From a virus, in IMG/VR virus record IMGVR_UViG_3300046794_000317, positions 1-38,784 of that record: a stretch of 38,784 nt of DNA. One strand, written 5' to 3'. Shown piece by piece: positions 4,571-38,595 of this stretch. A program made the translations under genes and the position numbers. Each line of letters starts with the position of its first letter. The first letter of the stretch is position 1. The notes below the pieces were generated by a model that was given only the letters and a program-made list of their open reading frames with translations, was not told where the DNA came from and did no database searches.

Positions 4571-5374
4571 TCAGGCCGGCAGCACAAAGCCGGTCTCTCG
4601 CAGTGCGCCGAAGCGTGCGAGCGGCTCGTCCGGCATCGCCAGTGCCTCCCGTGCCATCTGCACCTGGGTCGGCGTCAGCTTCTCGCCAGCGTCGGCGCGT
4701 GCCAGCAGGTTCCGGGCCCAGGCCTTCGGGTCGGTGCTGGCAGGGCGGTTCACGACGTTGCGGACCAGGTTCTCGATCGCCTGCTTTGCCGCGGCGTTCG
4801 ACGTGGTCGACTTGCCGGGGGCAGTCAGCTGCAGGTGAGGCTTCGGGATCTCGTCCCAGGTGGCTTTCGCCAGCTGCTGCTGGAGCGACTGTTCCCAGCG
4901 GGCCTTGACCTGGCTGTAGCTCTGCTCGCGCAGCTCCACGGCGATAGGCATGGCGGCCCAGTAAATCGCTGGGTGGGACCATTCGCCGTGTTCGCCGTTG
5001 ACGCGGGCCTGCACGCCGTTCACGGCCTCGTAGTACGCCTTGAGCGGGTCCAGCGATGGCCGGCAGGCCTGCACGAATTCGGCGCACGATGGCGGCCAGG
5101 CGAAGCGGCGGCGGCATTCGCGCAGCCCGACCTTGACGTCGGCCGGCGTGATGCCTTCCTCTTCGAACGCCTCGACCCAGCTCTCGGCCCAGTTGTCGAT
5201 CGCCTGCTGGTTCGGGAAGTTGCTGCGCCACTTGTGCGGGTAGGCGCCGTCCAGACGGTTGAACAGGTGATCGATGCAGGAGATGCCGAGGCTCGGCACC
5301 GGATCGAACCACTGCGAGAACGGGCGCGTGGTCGGCGACGAAGGCAGCTCGGGAATTTCGGCGAGGTTGGTCAT
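4571..5374 (-). CDS. Replication protein P-like helicase loader
   Basis: A 267-residue protein that would recruit the host DnaB helicase to the phage origin. Residues about 33-105 carry the lambda P-type block: a basic Trp-Arg segment before FPNQQAIDNW, then the VEAFEEEGIT helix, an Arg-rich helix (LRECRRRFAWPP) and EFVQACRP. The C-terminal half is Gln/Ala-rich and helical. The ATG overlaps the stop of the initiator-like gene by 4 bases. Order (initiator with internal origin, then P) is that of lambda O-P. Confidence 0.85.
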   Translation of the reverse strand: MTNLAEIPELPSSPTTRPFSQWFDPVPSLGISCIDHLFNRLDGAYPHKWRSNFPNQQAIDNWAESWVEAFEEEGITPADVKVGLRECRRRFAWPPSCAEFVQACRPSLDPLKAYYEAVNGVQARVNGEHGEWSHPAIYWAAMPIAVELREQSYSQVKARWEQSLQQQLAKATWDEIPKPHLQLTAPGKSTTSNAAAKQAIENLVRNVVNRPASTDPKAWARNLLARADAGEKLTPTQVQMAREALAMPDEPLARFGALRETGFVLPA

Positions 5375-6363
5375 GACGTGATCCGGTTGCGGTTGACGTG
5401 GGCGACGGGGTCAAACTTCTCGGGGCGGCCAGGATGCGCGGCATGCGGGGGTGTTGGCGGTGCGGCCAGAATCTGCACGACGATGGGCTCGAGGTAGGCG
5501 ATCGACACGTCGCCACCGCGGCCCTGGCGCTCGAGCGTGGCCTTGGCCTTCACGATGGCCGCGTTCAGCACGAGGTCGGTGACGCGCTCGTTCTGCGCCC
5601 AGGTGCAGGCCACGGTCGGATGCATGCCGTCAGCAGCAATGCCCTGGGCGCGCAGCAGCATGGCGATCTGCGTGTGGCGTTCCAGCTTCGGTTTCTGGCT
5701 CGGATGCTCCCGGTCGTCATCGGGCGCGGTAGTTGAAGGCTGAGCAGAGAGAGATGTTTTTAATTCTCCCTGTCCCTGTCCTTCTCCCTGTCCTTCTCCT
5801 TCTCCCTTAAGAGCGTTTTCCGTCGGATTTCCGACGGCTGTCTCAGGGTTTCCGGCGGAATCGCCTGCGCTTTCCAGCGGAATTTCTTTCGGTTCCTCTG
5901 GAAGAATGTCGGAAGTGGTGCCCGGTTCCGGCGGAAGCGGAAGCAACGGACGCCCTTCGGCCTCGCGCTGTTTGTTCGCTTTCCGGATGCGGTCACACTC
6001 TTTCTTCCACTGGTGGTGCAGCTTCGCCTTCCAGCTTTCCAGCGCTTTCTCGGCGACCACCGGGTGATAGAGGCGGCCGTCGGCGCACTTGATCCAGCCG
6101 TGCAGCGCGCCTTCGCGGACGTTCGCCCACTCCTTGACCACGCGGCCATAGCCGGCGGCCTTGGCGAGGAAGCGATCATCGTCAGGAAGGGATGCGGCGG
6201 GCACCTGATGCCAGGCGGCGCTCCAGAGAAGCACCGCGGCCCAGCATGCCTCGGGAGATTCGTACGCGGCCATGTCGCTGTCACGCAGGCGGGCGACGTC
6301 GAGCGGCATGAAGGCGAAGTCCTGCAGATTGCAGTCTGGTGGGGTGAGCGGGGCGGTCGTCAT
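5371..6363 (-). CDS. DUF1376-type replication initiator-like protein
   Basis: This gene occupies the lambda O position. Residues about 12-130 have the DUF1376/YdaU pattern (FAFMPLDVARLRDSD, then ACWAAVLLWSAAWHQVPAASL), a winged-helix-like domain common in phage replication proteins. Residues 140-215 form a low-complexity linker with a Gly-Glu/Gly-Gln repeat. The C-terminal domain (from about 225) is helical and resembles DnaT-type ssDNA-interacting tails. The ATG at 6363 is chosen over an upstream in-frame ATG because it overlaps the preceding stop (ATGA). The linker DNA contains the iterons described separately. The initiator role is inferred from domain, order and iterons. Confidence 0.8.
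   Translation of the reverse strand: MTTAPLTPPDCNLQDFAFMPLDVARLRDSDMAAYESPEACWAAVLLWSAAWHQVPAASLPDDDRFLAKAAGYGRVVKEWANVREGALHGWIKCADGRLYHPVVAEKALESWKAKLHHQWKKECDRIRKANKQREAEGRPLLPLPPEPGTTSDILPEEPKEIPLESAGDSAGNPETAVGNPTENALKGEGEGQGEGQGQGELKTSLSAQPSTTAPDDDREHPSQKPKLERHTQIAMLLRAQGIAADGMHPTVACTWAQNERVTDLVLNAAIVKAKATLERQGRGGDVSIAYLEPIVVQILAAPPTPPHAAHPGRPEKFDPVAHVNRNRITS
5761..5946. other. Probable replication origin: iteron array plus strand-biased tract
   Basis: Within the initiator-like gene, short palindromic elements of the form TTCCGNCGGAA start at 5817, 5828, 5849, 5871, 5893 (weaker), and 5936. Their spacing is 11, 21, 22, 22 and 43 bp, so all are on one helical face. On one side (5762-5809) is a pure-pyrimidine-like tract on the plus strand built of TCCCTG/TCCTTC units. 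Iterons inside an O-like gene next to a strand-asymmetric tract is the lambda ori design. The ori function is inferred. Confidence 0.6.
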
Positions 6364-6551
6364 GGCGGGCATGCCTCCGCCAGCTGCTGGCCAGCCTTCT
6401 CAGCCTCGCACAGGTCCCACTCGTGCTGCCAGGTGGAAATCACCGCCGTGCAGAACCAGTTGAAGCCGTGCTGGTCACGGCCGGCGCCGTGTGCGTGTGC
6501 AGCGCGGGCCTTCTCTCGGATCATTTCGCGGGAGACGATGGAGGTGTCCAT
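6360..6551 (-). CDS. Hypothetical early protein, 63 aa
   Basis: The ATG at 6551 overlaps the stop of the preceding gene and its own stop overlaps the initiator start (ATGA both times). The product begins MDTSIVSREMIREKARA and has a central Trp/Cys-containing helix (NWFCTAVISTWQHEW). Short proteins of this kind occur upstream of phage replication genes; function unknown. Confidence 0.65.
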   Translation of the reverse strand: MDTSIVSREMIREKARAAHAHGAGRDQHGFNWFCTAVISTWQHEWDLCEAEKAGQQLAEACPP

Positions 6552-7368: not shown

Positions 7369-7392
7369 ACCGGAGATGGTTTAGATGGTCAC

Positions 7393-7422
7393 ATTAAACA
7401 CTATGTTTAAACTCGGTGTCAA
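7393..7422 (-). promoter_or_regulatory. Leftward early promoter (controls cro and replication genes)
   Basis: Minus-strand TTGACA (7422-7417), an 18-bp spacer, and TTTAAT (7398-7393). The spacer is almost the same as in the rightward promoter at 9670-9699, including the operator that fills it. Repression by the CI protein is inferred from the two overlapping operators. Confidence 0.8.
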
Positions 7423-7448
7423 CAACGTGTGTAACACATCTTGTTTAG
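7394..7448. promoter_or_regulatory. Left operator cluster for the CI/Cro proteins
   Basis: O1 at 7394-7410 is a perfect palindrome, TTAAACA-CTA-TGTTTAA, over the -10 and spacer of the leftward promoter. O2 at 7418-7434 (minus strand TTACACA-CGT-TGTTGAC) covers its -35, with its centre 24 bp from that of O1. A third imperfect copy at 7432-7448 (TAACACA-TCT-TGTTTAG) lies nearer cI. The consensus recurs only at the rightward promoter. Confidence 0.75.
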
Positions 7449-7468
7449 TTAAGCCGATAATTTCCGGC

Positions 7469-8209
7469 ATGCACATTCAAATGGAACGGCTGTACCGCGC
7501 GGCCAAGGAACTCAAGAACATCGGCAGCCAGGCCGAGCTGGCGCGTGCGCTGAACCAGTCCTCGCAAACCATCAACAACTGGGAGGCGAGGGGCATTTCG
7601 AAGTCTGGCTTCCTGATCGCGCAGACGGAGATCGGTTGTTCTGCTGCCTGGCTGATGACCGGCGAAGGGCCGATGACCGTCACCACCCAGGTGGCACAAG
7701 ATGTGGATTCGGACGGCTTCATCACGAACACTCACGGCGGTGCCGTCGACGGTGCACAGCGCGTGCAGGTCGGAAGCGGGCCGGAGACGATCCCTATCCG
7801 AGCGGTCAAGCTGCACCTGCAGGCTGGTGTGAGCGGATTTGTCGCTGAGCCAGACCTTGAAGTCGATCACGGATATTTCCAGGTTCCGAAATACGTGATC
7901 GAGCGTCTTCAGCTGAACCCAGCCGATCTGATAATCATGGCCGTCAAGGGCCGCAGCATGGAGCCGATGTATTTCGAGGACGATAAGGTTCTGGTAGATA
8001 CATCGAAACAGATTCCCAAGAATAACGAGTGCTTTGCCGTGAATTGGAACGGTGAGCCGATTGTGAAATGCCTCATTAAAAAGGCGAATGACTGGTGCCT
8101 TTATTCGTTCAATCCTAAATTCCCGAGCATCAGTGTTCGAAGCGGACAGGCGAGCATTATCGGGCAGGTTATTTGGCAGCCAGAGCGAATCGTAGTAGGA
8201 CGACTGTAA
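7469..8209 (+). CDS. cI: CI-type repressor with LexA-like (S24) self-cleavage domain
   Basis: A 246-residue lysogeny repressor. Residues about 8-65 are a helix-turn-helix (IGSQAELARALNQSSQTINN). Residues about 110-245 are a LexA/CI peptidase domain with the Ala119-Gly120 cleavage site (LQAGVSGF), nucleophile Ser163 in GRSMEP and general base Lys200 in PIVKCLIKK. RecA-stimulated cleavage and SOS induction of the prophage follow from family knowledge. The ATG at 7469 is chosen because longer versions would run through the operators; ATG 7481 is an alternative. The stop abuts the ATG of the HIRAN gene, so the lysogenic transcript carries both. Confidence 0.93.
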   Translation: MHIQMERLYRAAKELKNIGSQAELARALNQSSQTINNWEARGISKSGFLIAQTEIGCSAAWLMTGEGPMTVTTQVAQDVDSDGFITNTHGGAVDGAQRVQVGSGPETIPIRAVKLHLQAGVSGFVAEPDLEVDHGYFQVPKYVIERLQLNPADLIIMAVKGRSMEPMYFEDDKVLVDTSKQIPKNNECFAVNWNGEPIVKCLIKKANDWCLYSFNPKFPSISVRSGQASIIGQVIWQPERIVVGRL

Positions 8210-35914: not shown

Positions 35915-36277
35915 TTATTTGCGCTGCTGCGCGAGGACTTGCTTCGTTGCTTCGATGAGCTGGGGCTTGACGTTGAAGTCGCCGGCCAGCGGTCGCGGCT
36001 TCTCGGGCAGCTTCTCACTCCCCACCTCGATGTAGCCGTTGCGGCGGAGGTACTCGCGATGCTGCTTGCGCCCCTCGATCATCGGCATCTTTCCGGTGGC
36101 CTTGTCGACGGCCACGGCCTGGTAGGCGGGGATGTCCGCCACCACGGCCGGCGCGCACACCTGACGGCCCATCGGCTGGCCGCAGCACTGTGGCAGGTCG
36201 TGGTTCATCCTGGCGATGCTGCGGTAGATGTCCTGAGCGGCGCCGCAGGCGCTGCACTTCATTGCATAGATGGGCAT
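35915..36277 (-). CDS. FmdB-like zinc-ribbon protein in the head operon
   Basis: A 120-residue protein that starts MPIYAMKCSACGAAQDIYRS, with Cys8-x2-Cys11 and Cys31-Cys32 forming a probable zinc ribbon of FmdB type. A Lys-rich middle (GKMPMIEGRKQHREYLRRNG) follows. Its ATG overlaps the portal stop (TAATG). Such small proteins are recurrent between portal and scaffold genes, but their task is unknown; regulation or assembly is possible. Confidence 0.77.
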   Translation of the reverse strand: MPIYAMKCSACGAAQDIYRSIARMNHDLPQCCGQPMGRQVCAPAVVADIPAYQAVAVDKATGKMPMIEGRKQHREYLRRNGYIEVGSEKLPEKPRPLAGDFNVKPQLIEATKQVLAQQRK

Positions 36278-38595
36278 TAATCCTCTCCTGAACCCTGGTT
36301 GGCGGCGCTGATCTGGGCCGCGTCGAGCGTGGTCTCGGCACCGAGTTCGGCCACCTCGAGGGCGACCTGGCCCTTCATCGCCTGCAGGATGAGCTGCAGG
36401 GTGGCGTTCATCTGCGCCTGGCGCTCCTGTGCCGCTGCTTCCTGTTGCGCCAGCCGTTCCTCCATCGCCATGCGCATCTGGTCGCGGTGCGCCTCCAGCG
36501 CGGTTTCCTGAGCCACCTGCCGCTGCTGCGCATCCTGCGCGGCATAGGCGGTCTGCTGCTCAAGGCGCGCCTTGAACTCCTCCAGCTCCTTTTGTAGGGC
36601 CAGCTCACGCTCGCTCTGGGCCGTCTCGGCTTGGATCCGATCGCGGTTGACCTGGATGTCGGCCTGGGCCTTCGCCTGGACCTGCTGGGCGACGGCGTCG
36701 GCTTTCACCTTCTCCGGGTCGGGCTTAGCCGGCTGTTTCGCGGCGTCTTCCAGCTGCTTCATGGTCGCTTCAAACACGTTCTCCAGCGTGCGGCCGGCCT
36801 TGAAGCTACGCAGGGTGAACATCAGCATCTGGCCCAGCAGCGGGCCCATCTGTGGGTTCTGCTGGATGGCCGGGATGGCCTGCTGGAGGAAGGTAGCCAC
36901 CGCCTTGAGCATTTCCATGCGCTCGGCCTTCTGCAGCTGCTCGTCCTCACCGATTGTCGAGTCGGTCTCGATGTCGATGCGGAAGTTGCGTGCTGCATCG
37001 TCCTGCAACAGCTGGCCAACCTGTTCCCAGGTGGGCTTCTGCAGCAGCTCGATCTGCTCCGGCGTCGGCTGCGGCGCTGGAGCGGGCGGCGCGGGCGGCT
37101 GCGCTGGCATTCCCATCATCGGCATTTGCGGCGCCGGCGGCTGCAGAGAAGCCTGTACCTGCTGCTTCTGCTGCTCGGTCGGCAGGTCGACGCCGCTGAT
37201 CTTGGCCAGTGTCTCGATGCCGAAGTGCTCGGCCATTACCTCGCCCATGATGCGCAAGGTGTCGCGGACGAACCGGGACACCTCGTCCTGCATGTCGCGC
37301 AGGCGGATCGATGCGAAGGCCGATTTCGTGCGCGTGGCCGTCGCGGTCTCGGACGGGTCGTTGGCACCGCGGATGATGTCCGACAGGCCAGTGATCTCGT
37401 ACAGGTCCTGCTTCACGCGATCGCGCGAGTCGTACAGCTGGACCAGCACGGCCGCGACTTCCTGGATGGGCAGCATCTGGATCGCGCCGGCGATGCCGCC
37501 TTTCTCGGCGAATGCCGCCCACGAGTCGACCGGAATGAGCTGATTCTCGATCCCTTCCGACAGCAGCCGCTGCACGCCCTGCGCGCTGGCATCGTAGACG
37601 CCCGCCACCTTCACCGCTTTCACGATGCTGGCGATGCGCGCGGTCAGCGTGTCGAGCTCGTCGGCCTGGTCCTGGTACAGGACGAAATCCGGCGTTGGGA
37701 TCATCGACTCGTTGTCGAGCGTGCCATACAGTGGGCGGGCGCATGGGAAGAACCCCGACAAGCGCAGCGGGTCGGATTTCTCGTCCAGCAGGCCGTCCGG
37801 ATACTCCTTGCACAGCCAGATGGCGGTCTTGCTGATTTTGTCCCAGATCTCGTAGATCATCGCCTTTTTGAGGCTGTCGGCGGTCGCGTCACCCTTGTCC
37901 TTGCCGTCGGTAGCGGCCAGCGGGATTTTTTTGCCGATCACTTCGCCGAAGCGTTGCACGCATTCGGCGCGCGTCAGGTAGACGATGCGCCAGACCGCGC
38001 GCACTTCCGACCAGGTGCGTGCCACGGTGTGCCCGAAGTCCTTCCAGTGCACATAGTCGGCCAGGCATTCCTCGTGCTCGATTTCTTCCAGCGGCTCCGG
38101 GGCGCCGGACAGCTTGTCCTGCGGCGCCGGGTCAGCATCGTCGGTCAAAGCGCCGGTATCTTGCTCTTGTTCGGCCTGGGCGAAGTGCGGCACATAGCGC
38201 ACCCAGACGACACCACGGCCAGGCAGGAAGCGGTCCAGCACGGCCGCGCGCATGATGTCCTTGAACGACTGCGTCTTGATGCAGTAATCCAGGCAGCGCT
38301 CCAGCACCTCGGACGCCTCGCGGCCAACCGGGTCTTCGTCCTTGAACCGGCGCTCAACCTCCGGCACCGGGTTCTTGGCGTAGACGGCCGGCATCAGCAC
38401 CTGCAGGTTCGACCACAGGATGTTGTACTTGGTCCGGGCCTCGTCGGCCGGGCCCTTCCGGTCGTCCTTGTAGCGCTTGACGATCTTCGTGCTGCGGGTC
38501 TCCCAGCGCTTGGCCGACGACTCGTACCGCTGAATTTCGGCCATCCAGCGGGTGAATTCCGGATGCGCTGGGGTGTTTGTGGTGGCCTGCGCCAT
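36277..38595 (-). CDS. Portal protein
   Basis: A 772-residue portal of the long P22-like type, the dodecameric DNA gate and docking place of terminase and tail. The N-terminal half has typical portal helices (YKDDRKGPADEARTKYNILW, ASEVLERCLDYCIKTQSFKD). Residues about 495-515 are Pro/Met-rich, and about 640-760 form a long Gln/Ala/Glu coiled coil that would be the internal barrel. The ATG at 38595 follows AAGGAAAA. It follows the Rmf-like gene. Confidence 0.92.
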   Translation of the reverse strand: MAQATTNTPAHPEFTRWMAEIQRYESSAKRWETRSTKIVKRYKDDRKGPADEARTKYNILWSNLQVLMPAVYAKNPVPEVERRFKDEDPVGREASEVLERCLDYCIKTQSFKDIMRAAVLDRFLPGRGVVWVRYVPHFAQAEQEQDTGALTDDADPAPQDKLSGAPEPLEEIEHEECLADYVHWKDFGHTVARTWSEVRAVWRIVYLTRAECVQRFGEVIGKKIPLAATDGKDKGDATADSLKKAMIYEIWDKISKTAIWLCKEYPDGLLDEKSDPLRLSGFFPCARPLYGTLDNESMIPTPDFVLYQDQADELDTLTARIASIVKAVKVAGVYDASAQGVQRLLSEGIENQLIPVDSWAAFAEKGGIAGAIQMLPIQEVAAVLVQLYDSRDRVKQDLYEITGLSDIIRGANDPSETATATRTKSAFASIRLRDMQDEVSRFVRDTLRIMGEVMAEHFGIETLAKISGVDLPTEQQKQQVQASLQPPAPQMPMMGMPAQPPAPPAPAPQPTPEQIELLQKPTWEQVGQLLQDDAARNFRIDIETDSTIGEDEQLQKAERMEMLKAVATFLQQAIPAIQQNPQMGPLLGQMLMFTLRSFKAGRTLENVFEATMKQLEDAAKQPAKPDPEKVKADAVAQQVQAKAQADIQVNRDRIQAETAQSERELALQKELEEFKARLEQQTAYAAQDAQQRQVAQETALEAHRDQMRMAMEERLAQQEAAAQERQAQMNATLQLILQAMKGQVALEVAELGAETTLDAAQISAANQGSGED

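Follow-up and report, generated by a model that had tools for sequence, protein, structure and literature searches.

Does an array of short palindromes inside a phage gene serve as the origin from which that phage replicates its genome? The question is raised by a viral sequence of 38,784 nt (IMG/VR record IMGVR_UViG_3300046794_000317, positions 1 to 38,784; here called the window), in which such an array lies within a gene encoding a putative 333-aa initiator (5371..6372, minus strand). The evidence presented below makes it very probable that the array is a phage theta-replication origin located inside its own initiator gene, on the plan known from lambda.

The putative initiator gene and its surroundings

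The 333-aa protein as a whole matches PHROG 22470 ('replication protein'), and residues 21–109 (6046..6312, minus strand) match the Pfam domain DUF1376 (PF07120; E = 3.3e-8, 34.2 bits, above the gathering cut-off of 30.1). A preliminary description of the locus had named a 330-aa DUF1376 protein; the domain assignment holds and the length is corrected here to 333 aa. Among named relatives of the gene, the closest occurs in Massilia sp. Leaf139 (L057). Phage_rep_O (PF04492), the Pfam domain matched by both lambda O (5.7e-36) and Gifsy-2 O (1.5e-30), gave no match to the window's protein at E values up to 1. A profile comparison between DUF1376 and lambda O likewise returned nothing, and is uninformative because the same method also missed YdaU, a known DUF1376 member. 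DUF1376 appears to be without detectable sequence relation to the DNA-binding domain of lambda, and the two may be remote kin. A sequence search of the PDB retrieved no solved relative of the DUF1376 domain. An iteron plasmid replicon of the Rep_3/RepA type was considered and rejected, given that the 333-aa protein carries no plasmid Rep domain and that the repeats are palindromic and intragenic.

The next gene, which overlaps the initiator gene by 4 bp (4571..5374, minus strand), encodes a lambda-P-like helicase loader (PF06992, 7.5e-14; PHROG 109). This replication operon and a divergent gene for a CI-like repressor (7385..8206, plus strand) form a lambda-like immunity/replication layout, and RecT-like, RecE-like, and integrase genes lie beyond the repressor on the plus strand. 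No par gene was found in the window region among those tested. The record is classed as linear; terminase genes at its left edge (1–1959) and the portal gene at its right edge (36277–38595) share a strand, suggesting that the window is a permuted circular temperate phage genome. Near the replication region of Burkholderia phage Magia (L049:310–690), a C-type lectin fold is annotated, a possible target of a diversity-generating retroelement.

The iteron array and its conservation as DNA

The core of the array is an 11-bp palindrome, TTCC-N3-GGAA. On the plus strand, palindromic elements start at 5818 (TTCCGTCGGAT), 5829 (TTCCGACGGCT), 5850 (TTCCGGCGGAA), 5872 (TTCCAGCGGAA), 5893 (TTCCTCTGGAA), and 5926 (again TTCCGGCGGAA), with measured steps of 11/21/22/21/33 bp that replace the 11/21/22/22/43 bp given earlier. 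Conservation was assessed in 24 close relatives with roughly 60–83% identity over the matched part (25 sequences with the window). It confirms palindromic repeats inside the gene and reduces the previously claimed six or more copies to five true iterons, at 5818, 5850, 5872, 5893, and 5926; the copy at 5829 is not a full site because relatives conserve only its half nearest 5829–5832. In the coding direction, the 0-based offsets of the five iterons relative to the start of the gene are 436, 469, 490, 512, and 544, with steps of 33/21/22/32 bp that are nearly symmetric about the third copy.

Iteron 1 (TTCCGCCGGAA on the coding strand; 5926..5936) has arms that are invariant in 25/25 sequences. 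A conserved TTCC half-site (5911..5914, minus strand) begins 22 bp past its start, with positions 22 and 24 conserved in 24/25 sequences, position 23 in 18/25, and position 25 in 16/25. The remaining iterons, assigned from palindrome and conservation, are iteron 2 (TTCCAGAGGAA on the coding strand; 5893..5903) at +33, iteron 3 (TTCCGCTGGAA; 5872..5882) at +54 in the centre of the near-symmetric array, iteron 4 (TTCCGCCGGAA; 5850..5860) at +76 in a reading frame that differs from that of the other four, and iteron 5 (ATCCGACGGAA; 5818..5828) at +108, which adjoins a GGAA half-site (5829..5832, minus strand) conserved in 25/25. Exact TTCCN3GGAA sites occur five times in the whole window versus 0.35 expected, a number reached in 0 of 100 shuffles, and four of them fall in the cluster, within 87 bp. 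With protein and codon usage held fixed, the palindrome score of 27 compares with a null of 9.8 ± 1.5 and is equalled in 0 of 200 shuffles. GC skew, a check suggested in the preliminary description, was uninformative, with no inflection or switch at 5.8 kb and no origin signal.

All five sites keep the same offsets in nearly every one of the 24 close relatives. The TTCC and GGAA arms hardly change at any of the three codon positions, while the spacers and the encoded residues vary widely. The top third-base frequency is 0.95 in the iteron arms versus 0.61 outside them (p = 2.6e-7), and exact sites are seen in 111 of 125 instances, compared with a mean of 2.9 and a maximum of 10 under synonymous codon resampling. 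Selection acts on the iteron DNA sequence itself. Iterons left unconserved at synonymous sites had been named beforehand as the outcome that would speak against an origin; strong synonymous conservation was found instead in the 24 relatives.

Past the last iteron, the block CTCTTAAGGGA (5803..5813, minus strand; identical in 24/25 of the close-relative set) is followed by a purine tract of (GGACAG/GGAGAA)n on the coding strand (5764..5806, minus strand), a candidate unwinding or helicase-loading region, and by a short, conserved AT-rich element at the end of the tract (GGAGAATTAAAAA; 5757..5769, minus strand). This is the strand-asymmetric pyrimidine tract noticed earlier beside the repeats, with its purines on the coding strand. 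Close relatives keep the order of the CTCTTAAGGGA block, the purine tract, and AATTAAAA or similar. Since CAG units make the maximum-purine-fraction statistic a poor one for the tract, it was judged by codon use and hexamer frames. Among the close relatives, Gly codons in the tract are GGA in 149/149 cases versus 96/528 elsewhere in the same genes; a GGGACA/GGGAGA tract follows in 131 DUF1376 genes, in one frame in 123 and in the other two in 8. The tract, though conserved, is not strongly AT-rich; a short element resembling AATTAAAA or TATAAA accompanies it beside the array, and there is no long AT-rich stretch.

Long GGGACA repeats fit a G-quadruplex motif, for which a role in the origin is speculation. 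CTG is an enterobacterial primase start, and the pyrimidine strand opposite these repeats carries CTG, speculatively a possible site for primase to begin. Past the AT element, many DUF1376 genes contain a C-run/G-run hairpin (CCCCC..A..CCCCC..GGGGG, encoding PPxxPPxGG), as in L057, L024, L025, L027, L054, L056, L097, L122, L124, and ydaU (L191). The hairpin goes with certain C-terminal domains, is absent from the window, and may be an element of single-strand initiation or of a primosome.

Repeat classes, candidate recognition helix, and domain exchange across the family

About 185 DUF1376 genes were collected, of which 175 unique genes were scanned by a de novo palindrome search against a protein-preserving null (40 shuffles per gene). 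As a positive control, lambda O yielded exactly its four annotated iterons, with 0/200 shuffles as high. Arrays beating 40/40 shuffles were found in 95 of the 175 genes compared with 2/108 neighbouring downstream control ORFs; the other 80 fail the scan at 0/40, some of them for having just two or three copies. The repeats fall into TTCC-N3-GGAA, GTCCC-N2-GGGAC, TGTCC-N3-GGACA, and other classes across DUF1376 groups. Steps in the TTCC class cluster at 11/21–22/32–33 bp (R = 0.88 at period 11), and both main classes have steps near 11, 21–23, and 33–34 bp. When 2.9 million viral contigs were scanned with the DNA pattern and no protein information, 72 hits were returned, 66 of them in DUF1376-type ORFs. 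The in-gene array layout is common to well over a hundred other phages and is a family-wide architecture, not the peculiarity of one phage.

Hits at L207:10533–10585 and in L217 and L244 were rejected as false positives, the pattern arising there from a 21-nt repeat that codes for MEEQDFP in an unrelated protein. Separately, TTCC-N3-GGAA arrays at L247:3769–3821 and L241:2345–2397 lie in ORFs without a DUF1376-type domain, that of L247 being followed by the purine-rich tract AAAGTAAAGTAAAGG; these ORFs look like other phage initiators sharing the origin layout.

Directly upstream of the iterons, the gene encodes a candidate recognition helix (HHQWKKECDRIRKANKQRE, about residues 119–139; 5956..6018, minus strand) whose version tracks the iteron class. 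The basic segment just past the domain reads CDRxRKxNK in 48/48 scorable TTCC-class genes and CARIKKHN in 55/55 scorable GTCCC-class genes, so that helix version and iteron class agree in 103/103 scorable DUF1376 genes. This perfect pairing suggests a recognition code. On a tree built from the remainder of the domain, the class changes about nine times; independent switches number eight on the best tree, only two of them well supported, and with these two the association corrected for ancestry is not significant. Ancestry alone may explain the pairing, because well-supported branches provide just two independent contrasts.

The C-terminal half varies independently of the iterons across DUF1376 genes. 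L025 and L032 have a C-terminal domain in common, and in both a DnaB gene comes next, yet they differ in helix and iteron class, and C-terminal domains pair with DnaB or with a P-like loader regardless of iteron class; the type present in the window, and also in L006, goes with a P-like loader. YdaU of the Escherichia coli K-12 Rac prophage has, behind DUF1376, a C-terminal domain that shares 46% identity over 120 aa with the C-terminal domain of Gifsy-2 O; the latter protein has Phage_rep_O at its N-terminus, along with an iteron array of its own. DUF1376 therefore occupies the place of the origin-binding domain of lambda O. We regard this exchange of DUF1376 and Phage_rep_O as the strongest functional argument after synonymous conservation.

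Other combinations were observed at the C-terminus. Rac-SA53 ydaU (L196:1501–2571) has DnaT (PF17948) as its C-terminal domain, and the C-terminus of K-12 YdaU shows a weak match to DnaT structures, from which it is suggested that phage initiators may carry DnaT-like helicase-loading domains. In Escherichia phage 673R7, 'protein O' (L193:1054–1842) has a YdaU-type C-terminal domain behind a third N-terminal domain, by Pfam neither DUF1376 nor Phage_rep_O, and its gene contains GCGTTA repeats and a GAGGAAGAGAAAGAGGAAGATATAAATA tract.

A broader reading combines these observations: DUF1376 would be a large origin-binding family with a helix code, a DNA cassette of helix and sites, and an oriJ identical with the ydaU array. 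We consider this combination evenly poised between right and wrong. Under it, CDRxRKxNK would select TTCC-N3-GGAA and CARIKKHN would select GTCCC-N2-GGGAC; because the target sites are encoded a few codons downstream of the helix, the two would move together as a single DNA cassette, exchanged among C-terminal domains that recruit helicase. The Rac origin oriJ of E. coli, which is active in experiments, would on this view coincide with the iterons inside ydaU; the exact location of oriJ was not found in the open-access literature.

A probable origin within the gene and its counterparts

We conclude that the locus is very probably a lambda-type in-gene origin with DUF1376 as its putative origin-binding module; that the protein binds and unwinds the DNA, that helicase is loaded, and that the site is active as an origin are inferred. 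Dimers of the DUF1376 protein would bind the five 11-bp palindromes, which lie approximately along one side of the DNA helix, and assemble a compact nucleoprotein complex resembling the O-some of lambda. The complex would strain or expose the adjoining purine tract and AT-rich element, and the C-terminal domain of the initiator would recruit the lambda-P-like loader from the next gene, delivering the host DnaB helicase.

Were the palindromes a by-product of protein-level repeats, they would stem from codon bias and a repetitive linker rich in Pro and Glu, and three iterons do encode P-x-E in one frame within a low-complexity linker. Copy 4, however, lies in another frame, the amino acids of the arm codons vary while their third bases stay constant, and iterons occupy at least two reading frames in 49/52 TTCC-class genes and 60/61 genes of the other main class. 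Synonymous resampling destroys the sites, and a by-product is hardly credible.

An operator array, at which the DUF1376 protein or another regulator controls transcription (autoregulation) and not replication, is somewhat easier to entertain and still improbable. Helically spaced palindromes would also suit a repressor, and the array sits in an early operon adjoining a repressor gene; against this, it lies about 430 bp into the coding region rather than at a promoter, has a conserved purine/AT element after it, adjoins a helicase loader gene, and is associated with domains that are exchanged with those of lambda O. Very improbable, too, is a site for partition, incompatibility, or recombination (parS-like, or res/att-like) in place of initiation: iteron arrays also serve plasmid partition and copy control, and parA-like genes occur in some relatives (phi297), but the par genes sought around the window's array are absent and arrays are nearly always inside the DUF1376 gene, with replication genes following.

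On the reading as an in-gene origin, DUF1376, which has no assigned function and occurs across many Proteobacteria in phages and prophages, would gain a specific function as an origin-binding initiator, and the location and anatomy of replication origins would be given for the phages and prophages that carry it. Recurrence of the lambda arrangement with a domain not recognizably related suggests that physical linkage of binding sites to their binding domain is itself favoured. The two repeat classes with their matched helices also constitute a natural test of protein–DNA recognition.

Among known systems, Stx phages P27 and 933W have iterons inside O, in numbers unlike that of lambda, with an AT-rich neighbour (PMC7466680). 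They share in-gene iterons with the window and differ in that O proteins, not DUF1376, act on lambda-like iterons. For Pseudomonas phage MD8, repeats are reported within an O-like gene that lies next to a P-like one, in a paper that does not name DUF1376 (PMC8508860); MD8 is absent from the DUF1376 hits collected here. In the open-access literature searched, no report joins DUF1376 with a replication origin. Rac ydaU/ydaV resembles the window in its N-terminal DUF1376, its palindrome-like TGTTCAAACA at 33- and 23-bp steps in the linker, and the ATPase loader that follows, but has another iteron sequence and a weaker array (2/200 shuffles; 28/200 for Rac-SA53).

The closest model is lambda, in which dimers of O bind the iterons within gene O and a neighbouring AT-rich stretch opens before DnaB is brought in by P (PMC3349717, PMC7466680, PMC8508860). 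The preliminary description had likened the locus to lambda ori, which lies within gene O, with a DUF1376 protein in place of an O homologue, a comparison strengthened by the lambda-P-like gene downstream and by the replacement of Phage_rep_O with DUF1376 before a common C-terminal domain. Both systems have palindromic iterons at 20–24 bp steps in the middle of the initiator gene and a P-type helicase loader next, and in both a purine-rich/AT-rich element lies downstream of the iterons on the same strand, that of lambda also being purine-rich on the coding strand. They differ in the DNA-binding domain (Phage_rep_O, PF04492, in lambda; DUF1376 in the window), in the iterons, which in the window are 11-bp TTCC-N3-GGAA palindromes at 33/21/22/32 bp, and in the neighbouring element, which is a 38-bp AT-rich stretch in lambda and, in the window, a tract of GGGACA/GGAGAA hexamers plus a short AT element.
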